Below the pieces are notes generated by a model. It saw only the letters and a list, made by a program, of their open reading frames with translations. It did not search any database and was not told the DNA's origin. Positions 1,955 through 26,049 of a stretch of DNA of 64,000 nt are shown here, piece by piece. A program made the translations under genes and the position numbers. Location: positions 7,343,001-7,407,000 of the forward strand of contig NZ_CP108430.1 in the NCBI RefSeq assembly GCF_041435335.1. The letters are read 5' to 3'. Every line of letters starts with the position of its first letter. Position 1 is the first letter of the stretch. This DNA is from Streptomyces sp. NBC_01283. GTDB lineage: Bacteria; Actinomycetota; Actinomycetes; Streptomycetales; Streptomycetaceae.

Positions 1955-2836
1955 CTAGCCCGGGGCCATTCTGCCCTGCGCGTCCTCCCCGGACTCGGGC
2001 ACCCTCACCGCAAGGGGGTACGGCGGGGGAGTCCCGCCGAATTCAGGACATACGGCCTGGTGGTCGCACCAGCCGCAGAGCTTCGTCGGCCTGGGCCGCC
2101 AGTCACCCGTCTCGGTGGCCAGCGTGATCGCCTCCCACAGCGCGTGCAGCTTCCGCTCGACCTGCTCCAGATCCTCGGTCCTGGGGTCGTACGTGATGAC
2201 GTCGCCGCTGCCCAGATAGACGAGCTGGAGGCGGCGCGGGACCACGCCCTTCAGGCGCCACACCACCAGGGCGTAGAACTTCATCTGGAAGAGCGGGCCG
2301 TCCGCGTACTCGGGACGCGGGGCCTTGCCCGTCTTGTAGTCGACGATCCGCACCTCGCCCGACGGCGCCACGTCCACCCGGTCGATGATGCCGCGCAGCT
2401 TCAGGCCCGAGTCCAGCTCCGCCTGCACGAACAGCTCGCGCTCGGCGGGCTCCAGACGGGTGGGGTCCTCCAGGGTGAACCAGCGCTCGACGAGCTTCTC
2501 CGCGTCCCCCAGCCAGCGCGCGAGCCGCTCACCCTGCTCGTCGTCGGCGAACAGCTCCGTCAGCTCCGGCCTGGCCTCGCGCAGCCGGTCCCACTGACCC
2601 GGGATCAGGGACTTCGCGCGCGGCGCCGTCCGCTCACCCGCGGGCGCGTCGAAGAGCCGCTCCAGGACGGCGTGCACCAGCGTGCCGCGGGTCGCCGCCT
2701 CGCTCGGCTTCTCCGGCAGCTTGTCGATCACCCGGAACCGGTAGAGCAGCGGACACTGCATGAAGTCGCTGGCGCGCGAGGGCGACAGGGACGCAGGACG
2801 CACGGCCGTCACGCCACCGTCGGTGCTGGTTTCCAT
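1955..2836 (-). CDS. RecB-family PD-(D/E)XK nuclease with Fe-S cysteines
   Basis: This protein of about 293 aa resembles the Cas4/AddB-like nuclease family (PDDEXK_1). The catalytic motif is seen as 'VRIVDYKTGKAPR' (D and K near residues 165-167). A lone N-terminal Cys (C28, 'CPLLYRF') pairs with a C-terminal cluster 'CGWCDHQAVC' near residues 248-258, which is the arrangement of the 4Fe-4S-bound nucleases of this family. The ATG at 2834-2836 is preferred over an upstream in-frame start because a perfect damage-type promoter ends 8 bases before it, implying a nearly leaderless mRNA. A role in DNA repair is inferred from family and promoter. The response-regulator gene follows closely. Confidence 0.88.
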   Translation of the reverse strand: METSTDGGVTAVRPASLSPSRASDFMQCPLLYRFRVIDKLPEKPSEAATRGTLVHAVLERLFDAPAGERTAPRAKSLIPGQWDRLREARPELTELFADDEQGERLARWLGDAEKLVERWFTLEDPTRLEPAERELFVQAELDSGLKLRGIIDRVDVAPSGEVRIVDYKTGKAPRPEYADGPLFQMKFYALVVWRLKGVVPRRLQLVYLGSGDVITYDPRTEDLEQVERKLHALWEAITLATETGDWRPRPTKLCGWCDHQAVCPEFGGTPPPYPLAVRVPESGEDAQGRMAPG

Positions 2837-2844
2837 AGGGACAG

Positions 2845-2867
2845 ACCCTACGACCCGCCACTGACAA
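2845..2867 (-). promoter_or_regulatory. PafBC-dependent (RecA-NDp type) damage promoter for the nuclease gene
   Basis: On the minus strand the sequence reads TTGTCAGTG, then 8 bases, then TAGGGT. This matches the published LexA-independent DNA-damage promoter consensus tTGTCRGTg-N8-TAnnnT at every defined position. The ATG follows the -10 hexamer by 8 bases. PafB and PafC, which activate this promoter class in mycobacteria, are encoded at 18.2-20.2 kb. Confidence 0.8.
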
Positions 2868-10486: not shown

Positions 10487-10509
10487 ATGTCAGACCTGGC
10501 TTATAGGGT
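10487..10509 (+). promoter_or_regulatory. Candidate pup promoter with partial PafBC-type motif
   Basis: ATGTCAGAC is followed by 8 bases and TAGGGT. The spacing and the TGTCAG core match the RecA-NDp consensus, but the last two bases of the upstream box (AC in place of TG) and its first base differ. No normal -35 is seen at 17-18 bases. The TAGGGT -10 itself is credible; damage control is a guess. Confidence 0.45.
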
Positions 10510-10549: not shown

Positions 10550-10768
10550 ATGGCGACCAAGGACACCGGCGGCGGACAGCAGAAGGCCACGCGTTCCACC
10601 GAGGAGGTCGAGGAGCAGACAGAGGAAGCGCAGGGCTCCGAGGACCTCAAGGAACGCCAGGAGAAGCTGAGCGACGACGTGGACTCCGTCCTGGACGAGA
10701 TCGACGACGTCCTCGAGGAGAATGCCGAGGACTTCGTGCGGTCCTTCGTTCAAAAGGGCGGACAGTAA
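10550..10768 (+). CDS. pup: Prokaryotic ubiquitin-like protein Pup
   Basis: This 72-aa, acidic, largely disordered protein has a central helical region for ARC binding (about residues 20-58) and ends in 'FVQKGGQ'. The C-terminal GGQ is the form that must be deamidated by Dop to GGE before PafA links it to lysines of target proteins. The start ATG follows a 'GGGGTGAG' ribosome site. About 230 bases separate it from prcB, with a TAGGGT element at 10882-10887, so prcBA may have its own promoter. Confidence 0.97.
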   Translation: MATKDTGGGQQKATRSTEEVEEQTEEAQGSEDLKERQEKLSDDVDSVLDEIDDVLEENAEDFVRSFVQKGGQ

Positions 10769-18240: not shown

Positions 18241-19194
18241 ATGGCGATTGCCAAGGCCGAGCGGCTGATGAACCTGGCGCTGTGTCTGCTCGGGACACGA
18301 CGGCCGCTCAGCAAGCGCGAGCTGCGCGAGTCCATCGAGGCCTACCTGGAGGCGGGGTCGGACGACTCCTTCAACCGGATGTTCGAGCGCGACAAGGACG
18401 ATCTGCGCGAACTCGGCCTGGTCATCGAGACGGTGGAGAACCTCGACGGCGAGGTCGGCTACCTCGCGCGCCGCGACAGCAACCGCCTCCCACCCATCAC
18501 CATCGACGCCGAGGAAGCCGCCGCGCTCGGCCTCGCCGCCAAGGTCTGGCAGCAGGCCCGCCTCGCCGGAGCCGCCAGCGGCGCCCTGCAGAAGCTGCGC
18601 GCCGCCGGACTGCCCGAGGACGTGGACCCGTACGAGGCGCACAGCGCCCTGGAGCCGCGCATCCCCGTGCACGAGGCGTCCTTCGAGCCGCTGATGCTCG
18701 CCTGCCGCGACCGCCGCCCGGTGATCTTCGACTACCGCAAAGCCACCGCGGCCCGCCCCGAGCCCCGCCACATCGAGCCGTGGGCGCTCGAATGCTGGCG
18801 CGGCCACTGGTACCTCGCGGGCTGGGACCGTGACCGCGGCGCCGAGCGCGTCTTCCGGCTCTCCCGCATCACCGGGAAGGTCCGCGCCCGCGCCGGCAAG
18901 TTCACCGCCGAGATCCCCGATGTGGTCACGGTGCGCGAGACCGTCGCGAGCTGGGCGGGGGAGAGCGCCGACCGCTCCGCCCTGATCAGACTGCGCACCG
19001 GCGCGGGCTATCCGCTGCGCGCCAAGGCCGCCCACATACGTGAAGTGGGCGAGGGGTGGGACGAGTTGGAGATTCCGTACGGTCACGGGCTCGACGCCTG
19101 GCTGGTGGAGTTCGGGCCCGACGTGGTGGTCCTGGAGCCCGCGGAACTGCGGGCCGACGTGGTGGACCGGCTGCGTGCCGTGGCCAAGGGCTGA
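18241..19194 (+). CDS. pafB: WYL-domain transcriptional regulator PafB
   Basis: This 317-aa protein has an N-terminal winged-helix region (about 1-80, 'RLMNLALCLLGTRRPLSKRELRESI'), a central WYL domain ('RRPVIFDYRKATAARPEPRHIEPWALECWRGHWYL', split here only for description) and a C-terminal WCX domain. PafB with PafC forms the activator that turns on most LexA-independent DNA-damage genes in mycobacteria. ATG 18241 follows GAAAGGG. The gene is followed by pafC after 15 bases. Its name comes from linkage to pafA; it is not needed for pupylation. Confidence 0.93.
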   Translation: MAIAKAERLMNLALCLLGTRRPLSKRELRESIEAYLEAGSDDSFNRMFERDKDDLRELGLVIETVENLDGEVGYLARRDSNRLPPITIDAEEAAALGLAAKVWQQARLAGAASGALQKLRAAGLPEDVDPYEAHSALEPRIPVHEASFEPLMLACRDRRPVIFDYRKATAARPEPRHIEPWALECWRGHWYLAGWDRDRGAERVFRLSRITGKVRARAGKFTAEIPDVVTVRETVASWAGESADRSALIRLRTGAGYPLRAKAAHIREVGEGWDELEIPYGHGLDAWLVEFGPDVVVLEPAELRADVVDRLRAVAKG

Positions 19195-19209: not shown

Positions 19210-20211
19210 ATGGCCTCGAACGCCATCGACCAGACCCGGCGGATGCTCTCCCTGGTGACCTATCTGCGTGAGCGCCCCGGCGCCCACGTCAGCGACGTCG
19301 CCCGCGCCTTCGGGATCACCGAGGACGAACTGATCTCCGACCTCGACGTGCTGCCGCTGTGCGGTACCAGCTTCCGCGGCGGCGACCTCCTGGACATCGA
19401 CACCGACGGCGACCGCATCTGGTGGCACAACCCGGACGACGTGGCGGCCCCCCTGCGGCTCGCCGCCGACGAGGCCACCGCGCTCCTGGTGGCCGCCCGC
19501 GCGGTCTCCACGCTGCCGGGGCTGCGCGAGAGCGACCGGCAGGCGCTGGTGCGCGCCACCGCCAAGCTGGAGACGGCGGCCGGCGAGAACGCGGGCGCCA
19601 GCGCGCGGCTCTCGGTGACCTTCGAGTCCGAGGGCGGTGTCTTCGCCGACGTCGACCGTGCCATCTCCGAGCGGCGCCGGCTCTGGCTGCGCTACTACTC
19701 GCCCGCGCGCGACGAGCTCACCGAGCGCGAGGTCGACCCGATCCGGCTCTTCGCCGTCGGGCACACGTACATGGAGGCGTGGTGCTACCTCTCCGAGGCG
19801 CGCCGCACCTTCCGCCTCGACCGGGTCGCCGAGATCAGGATCATGGACGAGCCGTCGTCGCCGCCGGAGGTCGAACTGCGCGATCTCTCCGAGGGGCTCG
19901 TACAGCCCGCGGCGGAGGACCCCGAGGTGGTCATCGAGGTCGGGCCCGGCGGCCGCTGGGTCGCCGAGTACTACCCCCATGACAGCGCCGAGGAGCTCCC
20001 CGACGGCGGTCTGCGGATCACCCTGCGGACGCCGGACCCCACCTCGCTGCGCAGGCTCGCGCTGCGGCTCGGCGGGGACGGGCACATCGTCTCCCCGGCG
20101 GATCTCGCGGACAGTGCACGGCTGGCGGCACGCGAGGCGCTCGCCGCTTATGACCGACACCCGGGCGGCTCGCCGGACGGGTCGTACGACAGGCAGGAGC
20201 AAGGGCGTTGA
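19210..20211 (+). CDS. pafC: WYL-domain transcriptional regulator PafC
   Basis: This 333-aa partner of PafB has the same winged helix, WYL and WCX order. The N-terminus 'QTRRMLSLVTYLRERPGAHVSDVARAFG' (HTH) and the WYL segment around residues 150-210 ('RLWLRYYSPARDELTEREVDP') are seen. ATG 19210 is 15 bases after pafB. Its stop overlaps the start of the zinc-ribbon gene, so translation is probably coupled. Targets in this window are suggested by three TTGTCAGTG-type promoters. Confidence 0.93.
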   Translation: MASNAIDQTRRMLSLVTYLRERPGAHVSDVARAFGITEDELISDLDVLPLCGTSFRGGDLLDIDTDGDRIWWHNPDDVAAPLRLAADEATALLVAARAVSTLPGLRESDRQALVRATAKLETAAGENAGASARLSVTFESEGGVFADVDRAISERRRLWLRYYSPARDELTEREVDPIRLFAVGHTYMEAWCYLSEARRTFRLDRVAEIRIMDEPSSPPEVELRDLSEGLVQPAAEDPEVVIEVGPGGRWVAEYYPHDSAEELPDGGLRITLRTPDPTSLRRLALRLGGDGHIVSPADLADSARLAAREALAAYDRHPGGSPDGSYDRQEQGR

Positions 20212-23205: not shown

Positions 23206-23228
23206 TTGTCAGTGGTGGCCGGTAGTCT
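23206..23228 (+). promoter_or_regulatory. PafBC-dependent (RecA-NDp type) damage promoter for helY
   Basis: TTGTCAGTG, 8 bases, TAGTCT: a full match to the tTGTCRGTg-N8-TAnnnT consensus. The helY ATG lies 10 bases after the -10 hexamer, so the mRNA is nearly leaderless. The match is located 3 kb from pafC. Confidence 0.8.
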
Positions 23229-23238
23229 CGAAAGCACG

Positions 23239-26049
23239 ATGACAGAGGACCTCTCACCGGCCGAGCGGTACGCGGCGGCGCGCGAGCGCGCTGTCGAGCA
23301 GGCCACAGCACTCGCCGGCTTCCGCGAGATGTACGAATTCGGCCTCGACCCCTTCCAGATCGACGCCTGCCGGGCGCTCGAGGCGGGCAAGGGCGTGCTC
23401 GTGGCCGCCCCCACGGGCTCGGGCAAGACGATCGTCGGCGAGTTCGCCGTGCACCTTGCCCTGCTGCAGGGCAAGAAATGCTTCTACACCACGCCGATCA
23501 AGGCGCTCTCCAACCAGAAGTACGCCGACCTCGCCAAGAGATACGGCGCGGACAAGGTCGGTCTGCTGACCGGCGACAACAGCGTCAACTCCGATGCCCC
23601 GGTGGTCGTGATGACCACCGAAGTGCTGCGGAACATGCTGTACTCGGGCTCGCAGTCCCTGCTGAACCTCGGCTATGTGGTCATGGACGAGGTGCACTAC
23701 CTCTCCGACCGCTTCCGAGGCGCCGTCTGGGAAGAGGTGATCATCCACCTCCAGGAGTCGGTGACGCTGGTCTCCCTGTCGGCGACCGTCTCGAACGCCG
23801 AGGAGTTCGGCGACTGGCTCGACACCGTCCGCGGCGACACCCAGGTGATCGTCTCGGAGCACCGGCCCGTGCCCCTGTTCCAGCACGTCCTCGCCGGACG
23901 CCGGATGTACGACCTCTTCGAGGAGGGCGAGGGCCAGCGCAAGGCCGTCAACCCCGACCTCACGCGCATGGCACGGATGGAGGCCAGCCGTTCCTACAAC
24001 CCGCGTGACCGCCGCAAGGGCAAGATGGTCCGCGAGGCCGACCGCGAGCGCGAGCGCCGGCAGCGATCACGGATCTGGACGCCGGGCAGGCCCGAGGTCA
24101 TCGACCGGCTCGACTCCGAAGGGCTGCTGCCTGCCATCACGTTCATCTTCAGCCGCGCGGCCTGCGAGGCCGCCGTGCAGCAGTGCCTGCACGCGGGGCT
24201 GAGGCTGAACGACGAGGACGCGCGGATGCAGGTCCGCGAGATCGTCGAGGAGCGCACGGCCGCCATCCCCGACGAAGACCTGCACGTCCTCGGGTACTAC
24301 GAATGGCTGGAAGGCCTGGAGCGCGGCATCGCCGCACACCACGCGGGCATGCTGCCCACCTTCAAGGAAGTCGTCGAAGAGCTCTTCGTGCGTGGTCTGG
24401 TGCGCGCCGTCTTCGCCACCGAGACCCTCGCCCTGGGCATCAACATGCCCGCGCGCAGTGTGGTGTTGGAGAAGCTCGTCAAGTGGAACGGTGAGCAGCA
24501 CGCGGACATCACCCCCGGTGAGTACACGCAGCTGACCGGCCGTGCCGGGCGGCGCGGCATCGATGTCGAGGGCCATGCGGTCGTCCTGTGGCAGCGCGCC
24601 ATGAGCCCGGAGCACCTCGCGGGACTCGCCGGAACGCGCACCTATCCGCTGCGGTCCAGCTTCAAGCCGTCGTACAACATGGCGGTGAACCTGGTCGAGC
24701 AGTTCGGGCGGCACCGGTCGCGTGAACTCCTGGAGACGTCCTTCGCGCAGTTCCAGGCCGACAAGTCCGTCGTCGGGATCTCCCGCCAGGTGCAGAGGAA
24801 CGAAGAGGGACTCGAGGGCTACAAAGCCTCGATGACCTGCCACCTGGGCGACTTCGAGGAGTACGCCCGGCTCCGCCGCGAGCTGAAGGACCGGGAGACC
24901 GAGCTCGCCAAGCAGGGCGCCAACCAGCGCAGGGCGGCCGCCGCGACCGCCCTGGAAAAGCTCAAGCCCGGTGACGTCATCCACGTGCCGACCGGGAAGT
25001 ACGCGGGCCTCGCGCTCGTCCTGGACCCGGGGATTCCGGCGGGGCGGGTCAACGGCCACCGCGGGCTGGAACACCACGACGGGCCGAGGCCGCTGGTCCT
25101 CACCGCCGAGCGGCAGGTCAAGCGGCTTGCCTCGATGGACTTCCCGGTGCCGGTCGAGGCACTCGAGCGGATGCGCATCCCGAAGTCGTTCAACGCGCGC
25201 TCGCCGCAGTCGCGCCGGGACCTGGCGTCCGCGCTGCGCACGAAGGCCGGGCACATCGTGCCGGAGCGGCACCGCAAGGGGCGCGCGGCCGCCGCCGACG
25301 ACCGCGAGATCGCCCGGCTCCGTACGGAACTGCGGGCGCACCCCTGCCACGGGTGCGACGAGCGGGAGGACCACGCGCGGTGGGCCGAGCGCTTCTACCG
25401 CCTGCGGCGGGACACCGTGCAGCTGGAGCGGCGCATCGAAGGGCGCACGAACACGATCGCGCGGACCTTCGACCGGATCGTGGCGCTCCTCACCGAGATG
25501 GATTACCTCCGCGGCGACGAGGTCACCGAGAACGGCAAGCGGCTCGCCCGGCTCTATGGGGAGCTGGACCTCCTTGCGAGTGAATGCTTGCGGGACGGCG
25601 TCTGGGAGGGGCTCAGCCCGGCCGAACTGGCCGCGTGCGTCTCCGCGTTGGTGTTCGAGGCCCGGATGGCGGACGACGCGCTCGCCCCCAAGCTGCCCAA
25701 CGGCAAGGTGAAGGCCGCTCTTGGCGAGATGGTGCGGATCTGGGGGCGTCTCGACGCCCTGGAGGAAGAGTTCAAGATCAACCAGGCGGAAGGGGTCGGT
25801 CAGCGGGAGCCGGACCTCGGCTTCGCCTGGGCGGCATACATGTGGGCGTCGGACAAGGGCCTCGACGAGGTGCTCCGGGAGATCGAGATGCCGGCCGGGG
25901 ACTTCGTGCGATGGTGCAAGCAGGTGATCGACGTCCTCGGGCAGATCTCGGCGGCCGCTCCCCGCGAGGGTTCGACTGTGGCTAAGAATGCGCGTAAGGC
26001 TGTGGATCAGTTGCTGCGGGGTGTGGTGGCGTACAGCTCCGTCGGCTGA
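23239..26049 (+). CDS. helY: Ski2-like DEVH-box helicase HelY
   Basis: This protein of about 936 aa is a superfamily-2 helicase. Walker A 'APTGSGKT' is near residue 57, the DEVH box ('VVMDEVHYLSD') near 150, 'LSAT' near 185 and motif VI 'QLTGRAGRRGID' near 435. A C-terminal helical domain of the DSHCT type follows. The family is linked to RNA processing or DNA-damage tolerance; the M. tuberculosis homologue is called HelY and lies in the same pafBC-tatAC-helY order. ATG 23239 is preferred over an upstream in-frame start that overlaps the promoter. A terminator follows. Confidence 0.92.
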   Translation: MTEDLSPAERYAAARERAVEQATALAGFREMYEFGLDPFQIDACRALEAGKGVLVAAPTGSGKTIVGEFAVHLALLQGKKCFYTTPIKALSNQKYADLAKRYGADKVGLLTGDNSVNSDAPVVVMTTEVLRNMLYSGSQSLLNLGYVVMDEVHYLSDRFRGAVWEEVIIHLQESVTLVSLSATVSNAEEFGDWLDTVRGDTQVIVSEHRPVPLFQHVLAGRRMYDLFEEGEGQRKAVNPDLTRMARMEASRSYNPRDRRKGKMVREADRERERRQRSRIWTPGRPEVIDRLDSEGLLPAITFIFSRAACEAAVQQCLHAGLRLNDEDARMQVREIVEERTAAIPDEDLHVLGYYEWLEGLERGIAAHHAGMLPTFKEVVEELFVRGLVRAVFATETLALGINMPARSVVLEKLVKWNGEQHADITPGEYTQLTGRAGRRGIDVEGHAVVLWQRAMSPEHLAGLAGTRTYPLRSSFKPSYNMAVNLVEQFGRHRSRELLETSFAQFQADKSVVGISRQVQRNEEGLEGYKASMTCHLGDFEEYARLRRELKDRETELAKQGANQRRAAAATALEKLKPGDVIHVPTGKYAGLALVLDPGIPAGRVNGHRGLEHHDGPRPLVLTAERQVKRLASMDFPVPVEALERMRIPKSFNARSPQSRRDLASALRTKAGHIVPERHRKGRAAAADDREIARLRTELRAHPCHGCDEREDHARWAERFYRLRRDTVQLERRIEGRTNTIARTFDRIVALLTEMDYLRGDEVTENGKRLARLYGELDLLASECLRDGVWEGLSPAELAACVSALVFEARMADDALAPKLPNGKVKAALGEMVRIWGRLDALEEEFKINQAEGVGQREPDLGFAWAAYMWASDKGLDEVLREIEMPAGDFVRWCKQVIDVLGQISAAAPREGSTVAKNARKAVDQLLRGVVAYSSVG

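Follow-up and report, generated by a model that had tools for sequence, protein, structure and literature searches.

The window, by which we mean the whole analysed stretch of 64,000 nucleotides from Streptomyces sp. NBC_01283, carries the gene of a RecB-like nuclease on its reverse strand and, further along on the forward strand, pup, pafB, pafC and the gene of a Ski2-like helicase (Table 1). The pup gene was named from its sequence and position, a label that we assume to be right, and we take the DSHCT helicase to be HelY. A preliminary description of this DNA had placed PafB and PafC 15 kb away from the nuclease. Indeed, pafB starts 15.4 kb from the nuclease gene, and pafC is the next gene.

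Table 1. Genes and promoter elements of the nuclease-pafBC locus; positions are those of the window.
Feature	Position	Strand	Basis or remark
RecB-like PD-(D/E)XK nuclease, 293 aa, four invariant cysteines	1955..2836	-	PF12705 PDDEXK_1, 3.2e-41
Predicted transcription start region, leader of 0-2 nt from the A of the ATG	2836..2838	-	inferred from the distance to the -10 element
-10 element TAGGGT	2845..2850	-	fits TAnnnT after an 8-nt spacer
PafBC-type -26 element TTGTCAGTG	2859..2867	-	exact match to TTGTCRGTG
Candidate PafBC-type promoter TGTCAG-N10-TAGGGT upstream of pup	10488..10509	+	40 nt to the pup ATG
pup (prokaryotic ubiquitin-like protein)	10550..10768	+	translation
pafB	18241..19194	+	matches M. 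smegmatis chains 7p5x and 9fnd; ssDNA-site residues kept
pafC	19210..20211	+	matches 7p5x, 9fnd and 9fne; R202 and R205 kept
Second exact PafBC-type promoter	23206..23228	+	10 nt before the helicase ATG at 23239; 2 mismatches relative to the first site
Ski2-like DSHCT helicase, downstream of pafBC	23239..26049	+	PF08148, PF00270

The family search bears out the earlier assignment of the first gene to the RecB-like nucleases. We compared the protein with its homologues from 20 genomes. All 21 sequences, the window included, share the presumed catalytic residues D152, D166, K168, Q184 and Y188 as well as the cysteines C28, C254, C257 and C263. The nearest solved chains were UvrD/REP-type helicases (6ppu, 7sjr, 6ppj and 9np6; E values from 4.3e-5 to 8e-4), and 6ppu and 7sjr are presumably AdnAB. 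The PD-(D/E)XK core and the flanking cysteines are common to these helicase-nucleases (6ppu/7sjr), to the Cas4/AddB-type iron-sulphur nucleases and to the window protein. Unlike the helicase-nucleases, the window protein stands alone, at 293 aa and without a helicase. We liken a four-cysteine PD-(D/E)XK protein of such a size to the iron-sulphur nucleases of the Cas4/AddB sort, and the window protein is probably one of them. By its naming and by gene order, rv2119 of M. tuberculosis is the presumed orthologue. Rv2119 shares the RecB-family naming, being listed as 'RecB exo3' in a table of PMC2587704, and a passage of PMC8151990 describes rv2119 as overexpressed after mitomycin C in an M. tuberculosis recA mutant.

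The RecA-NDp/PafBC consensus of mycobacteria consists of TTGTCRGTG, an 8-nt spacer and TAnnnT. Performing a motif scan of the window, we found a match to TTGTCRGTG-N8-TANNNT without any mismatch at 2867-2845 of the reverse strand (TTGTCAGTG GCGGGTCG TAGGGT). The last T of TAGGGT is separated by exactly 8 nt (CTGTCCCT) from the nuclease ATG at 2836. The preliminary description had read this element, its distance from the ATG and its fit to the damage consensus at every fixed position, and all three readings were exact. At up to three mismatches, the window holds three matches against 0.55 expected, a number that 3 of 100 shuffles also reached. The core pattern TGTCRG-N10-TANNNT likewise occurs three times, against 0.05 expected and with 0 of 100 shuffles reaching three; these core sites lie upstream of the nuclease, pup and the DSHCT helicase. 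The LexA box TCGAACNNNNGTTC, searched with at most one mismatch, gave six matches in the window against 3.54 expected, none of them in the intergenic region 2837-2964.

Homologues of the nuclease were present in 135 of the 158 genomes of the class, and we compared the upstream DNA of 100 of them, hand-picked for spread (15 from the same genus). The arrangement TGTC-N12-TAnnnT followed after 5 to 9 nt by an in-frame RTG was found at 75 of the 100 loci, namely at 13 of 15 same-genus loci and at 62 of 85 others. No locus of the 100 had TGTC at another spacing from TAnnnT (6-11 or 13-18), and rearranging TGTC in each of the 11 other possible ways gave no match at the same place. All other four-letter words at this place were rare (CGTC 6, AGCT 2, the rest at most 1). 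The distance from TAnnnT to an in-frame RTG was 6, 7 or 8 nt at 25, 49 and 21 of the 100 loci, and any other distance up to 44 occurred at no more than 5; the control pattern TnnnAT never preceded an in-frame RTG at more than 3 loci at any distance. Among the named Streptomyces loci, which are the best matches only, 75 of 80 showed the layout, and the remaining five show it with a start 87-159 codons further upstream, which makes 80 of 80. The leading T of the motif is not conserved at the nuclease gene (C 62, T 9, A 3 and G 1 at 75 Streptomyces loci). Thus, the invariant part of the nuclease promoter is TGTC and TAnnnT at a fixed spacing.

The TGTC core is missing from its fixed place at 25 of the 100 loci, one of which is a contig edge (L055) and another has a doubtful start (L045). 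At 22 of these 25, TAnnnT still stands 6-8 nt before an in-frame RTG. They include 6 of the 8 fetched loci of family f19 and 6 of the 6 of family f27, which keep the -10 element and the leaderless geometry without the core. Such loci would suit an ordinary housekeeping -10 element with a leaderless start, at which TGTC is conserved for a reason other than PafBC and the gene is not induced by damage. Against this, TGTC is found only at the PafBC spacing, the copies of the motif elsewhere in the genome mark repair genes (described below), and the presumed orthologue rv2119 is induced without recA according to the passage of PMC8151990. We consider the housekeeping explanation very improbable and prefer a PafBC-dependent promoter.

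A scan of the genome for the same motif had been proposed in the preliminary description, and it bore fruit: TTGTCRGTG-N8-TANNNT has 35 exact matches in the whole genome, against 0 for the reversed pattern. Sixteen genomes of the same genus, our own included, together hold 412 exact sites against 2 reversed ones (totals added by hand). Ten genomes reached via the named Streptomyces loci, among them S. coeruleorubidus ATCC 13740, S. antibioticus DSM 40234 and S. hygroscopicus ATCC 21589, hold 349 against 1; this set overlaps the former by at least one genome (S. cyaneofuscatus, probably identical with G032). All 151 genus genomes examined contain the motif with an RTG 4-10 nt behind it; the reversed control matched 4 times overall. 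A chance match to a loose consensus would account for the window matches at up to three mismatches, which, taken alone, were equalled by 3 of 100 shuffles. It fails to account for a nuclease site with 0 mismatches, for the one spacing kept across relatives and for the genome-wide enrichment. We rule out a chance origin on the conservation, on the 35 sites against 0 and on the 412 against 2, and give it next to no credence.

We read the gene behind every one of the 35 sites and performed a family search. Seventeen sites precede replication or repair genes: those of RecA, a DinG/YoaA-type helicase, a UvrD-family helicase, PcrA, RecQ, RadA, DnaX, an AlkZ-like glycosylase, DnaE, UvrB, Ogt, UvrA, a weak RecD2-like helicase, the window nuclease, RuvC, a RarA-like ATPase and uracil-DNA glycosylase. 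The DinG/YoaA, RarA and RecD2 matches fall under the NCBIfam curated cut-offs, and these names were given by best similarity. Three more of the 35 are borderline cases, ThyX, ribosomal protein S6 and the DSHCT helicase; the ssb gene often adjoins that of ribosomal protein S6. The other 15 comprise a SigX5-family ECF sigma factor, a second ECF factor, a SWIM protein, a GNAT acetyltransferase, an ABC permease, a DUF218 protein, a TPR protein, a VOC protein, a transposase-like protein on a small contig, and proteins with no family match at L009, L027, L036 and L040. The last two of these 15 sites, L023 and L039, had no convincing gene behind them.

The distant same-genus genome G139 has 23 sites, of which 11 precede proteins similar to those behind the sites of the first genome and the other 12 do not. 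RecA, RadA, DnaX, Ogt, RuvC and UNG belong to the shared ones. Across the class, TGTC-N12-TAnnnT was found at recA in 15 of 16 genomes, a count made without shuffle control.

Further sites were noticed in the course of this reading. A similar ABC transporter permease, with no evident role in repair, stands behind the motif in two distant same-genus genomes (L020 and L231). In G139, the exact motif at L225 stands 80 nt upstream of a protein that resembles the MADS anti-phage methyltransferase MAD2, with a score below the curated cut-off and in a piece cut by the end of the locus. Two genomes of family f16 hold many exact copies (63 in G122 and 119 in G140), and in G122 the listed copies often share one spacer, which suggests a repeated sequence that carries the motif.

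Many sites lie close to a start codon. In the first genome, the first plausible start codon follows TAnnnT at 4-10 nt at 21 of 35 sites, at exactly 7 nt at 11 of them; none of the 35 sites has a candidate start codon at 11-17 nt, and a second group lies beyond 22 nt. Some of these start assignments are doubtful, and the usual start of RecA lies further on. G139 has 10 sites in the 4-10 nt bin and 1 in the 11-17 nt bin. Transcription is expected to start about 6-8 nt past a -10 element, so a start codon 6-8 nt after the -10 element makes leaders of 0-2 nt likely. The nuclease mRNA is thus likely to be leaderless or nearly so, as the preliminary description had suggested; its ATG lies 8 nt past the -10 element, and 6-8 nt are common in the relatives.

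At recA, the nearest in-frame start lies at least 35 nt from the motif in 11 of 15 cases and 5-8 nt from it in 4 of 15. As recA starts are mostly 35 nt or more away, leaderlessness is not a consequence of the motif as such. At L011 and at L226 (G139), a GTG stands 7 nt after the -10 element of recA and would give RecA the N-terminal extension VKRSTQANRVEP, which is identical in both genomes; this GTG may be a leaderless start or part of conserved leader DNA. In the databases, many homologues of the nuclease are given lengths above 293 aa. If the leaderless starts are true, the present annotation of these genomes would misplace the N-terminus of some repair proteins.

We also checked the proposed regulator. 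The PafB and PafC of the window align with the M. smegmatis PDB chains over nearly their whole length. Counting along these alignments, we find R181, Y196, R204, R208, R211 and R214 of M. smegmatis PafB identical to R176, Y191, R199, R203, R206 and R209 of the window protein, and R201 and R204 of M. smegmatis PafC identical to R202 and R205. Passages of PMC11804915 describe PafBC as activated by ssDNA, with PafB reading the -26 motif and PafC contacting sigma domain 4. They also state that ssDNA binding was lost in PafB variants at R181, at Y196, at R204/R208 together with R181, and at R211/R214, and that mutating the R201/R204 pair of PafC alone did not abolish it. The conserved PafC pair therefore says less, because its mutation alone left ssDNA binding.

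The motif could also be real and damage-responsive and have a reader other than PafBC. ClgR is such a candidate: a 2011 study reportedly proposed it as the reader of the RecA-NDp motif in mycobacteria, and its recognition by ClgR is discussed in a section of PMC5656591. Some support for this idea comes from two genomes of family f23 that keep the motif both at the nuclease and at recA and in which a search at 1e-6 detected neither PafB nor PafC. They do encode WYL domains, in G023 as two close together on one strand. In G061, one ORF has a weak PafB match of 23 bits (E 1.5e-8, in a search of few ORFs); no such match was seen in G023. PafBC is at most putative in these two genomes, and the retained WYL domains speak against a different reader there. 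PafB was found in 153 of the 158 genomes of the class at 1e-25, and three of the five misses have a PafB or PafC match at a looser threshold. Moreover, PafBC was bound at the motif in vivo, as stated in part of PMC6789036, and takes part in the initiation complex on such promoters, as stated in part of PMC11804915. We hold a reader such as ClgR to be very unlikely and retain PafBC.

Our best explanation, to which we assign a probability of roughly 0.86, is a PafBC-dependent damage promoter of the RecA-NDp type that gives rise to a leaderless or nearly leaderless mRNA of a RecB-like, probably iron-sulphur nuclease, under the same switch as a genome-wide replication and repair set. DNA damage would leave ssDNA, which would bind the WYL domains of PafBC. 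PafB would recognise the TGTCRG element at about -26, PafC would hold domain 4 of the sigma factor of the housekeeping RNA polymerase, and transcription would begin at or beside the nuclease ATG. Across the Streptomyces genome, the same PafBC switch would govern a set of replication and repair genes. From the observed motif, its geometry and conservation, the genes behind its copies, the kept PafBC residues and the linkage (see below), we infer PafBC binding, damage induction and the exact 5′ end. Control of the nuclease by PafBC is supported by the agreement of the fixed-spacing conservation, the repair genes, the PafBC residues and the induction of rv2119.

The nuclease gene keeps company with pafBC. 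Counting by hand, we find that nuclease and pafB share a contig and lie no more than 50 kb apart in all 50 genomes that have at most 10 contigs and list both genes; nine of these genomes are from the same genus and several are close kin within f19. Three f19 genomes share the order nuclease, trmI, pafB, pafC, tatC, a kinase-like gene and the DSHCT helicase. In the 11 kb fetched from these three small genomes, no match was found to arc, dop, prcA, prcB or pafA. Three larger genomes have the Pup-proteasome genes between trmI and pafB. Of the neighbour labels, those of TrmI, an M50 peptidase and the helicase come from a family search, and the remaining ones are assumed. The nuclease gene seems to be linked to pafBC and not to the proteasome genes. 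With its promoter at 75 of 100 loci, its linkage in 50 of 50 genomes and its place beside pafBC in the three small genomes, where none of the five genes searched for was matched in the 11 kb, the nuclease is a natural candidate for a factor that acts on the ssDNA signal.

A similar site lies upstream of pup. Among 14 other genomes of the genus, 13 have TGTC-N12-TAnnnT no more than 160 nt upstream of pup. Of 23 genomes examined in all, 21 yielded a pup gene and 16 of these have the site, figures without chance control; two f16 sites have AC and not RG after TGTC. The flanks of this block are conserved in relatives as well, so the pup site stays a candidate only. In the window, the pup site also shows an inverted repeat, TCAGACC..GGTCTGA, which we considered as an alternative. 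Most relatives have G for A in its 5′ half with an unchanged 3′ half, the pairing is not kept, and we rejected it. A section of PMC5656591 reports no influence of PafBC on the pupylation components of M. smegmatis. Control of pup by PafBC, if true, would differ from that case.

The pafBC locus of Streptomyces might even be a self-contained damage circuit. PafBC would switch on three of its neighbours (nuclease, pup and DSHCT helicase). By producing or removing the activating ssDNA, the nuclease would set the strength or the duration of the response, and pup, once induced, would tag repair proteins for removal and end it. We regard this circuit as speculative and on the whole unlikely.

The Streptomyces sites resemble the mycobacterial RecA-NDp/PafBC promoters in the -26 element, the 8-nt spacer, TAnnnT and the occurrence of copies before DNA-repair genes, and as in mycobacteria the genome encodes a PafBC with the ssDNA-site residues, a likeness seen at the level of sequence. 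They differ from the mycobacterial motif in the leading T, which is usually C at the nuclease (62 of 75), and in the candidate start codon 4-10 nt after the -10 element at 21 of 35 sites. In Streptomyces, the RecA-NDp promoter of S. rimosus recA has reportedly been noted. S. coelicolor recA and SCO6735 carry the RecA-NDp motif, and SCO6735 is UV-inducible, as stated in parts of PMC5087735 and PMC9411070. These cases have the same motif at single genes; unlike them, we describe a genome-wide set and the nuclease of the pafBC locus itself.

The motif, the regulator and its role in mycobacteria are thus already known, as is the motif at recA and SCO6735 of Streptomyces. The genome-wide Streptomyces motif set (a predicted PafBC regulon), the putative leaderless geometry and the similar candidate site before pup appear to be new, and we found no description of a Streptomyces PafBC regulon or of this geometry in the open-licence literature that we searched. 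Parts of PMC9380542 say that the existence of a RecA/LexA-independent damage response in Streptomyces remains to be shown, and that, judging from a first search, S. venezuelae does not seem to conserve the PafBC motif of M. smegmatis. That search may have been negative because it relied on a mycobacterial matrix. The 412 sites against 2, together with the repair genes behind the 35 sites, predict that Streptomyces has such a RecA/LexA-independent response, and they provide a testable list of its genes.
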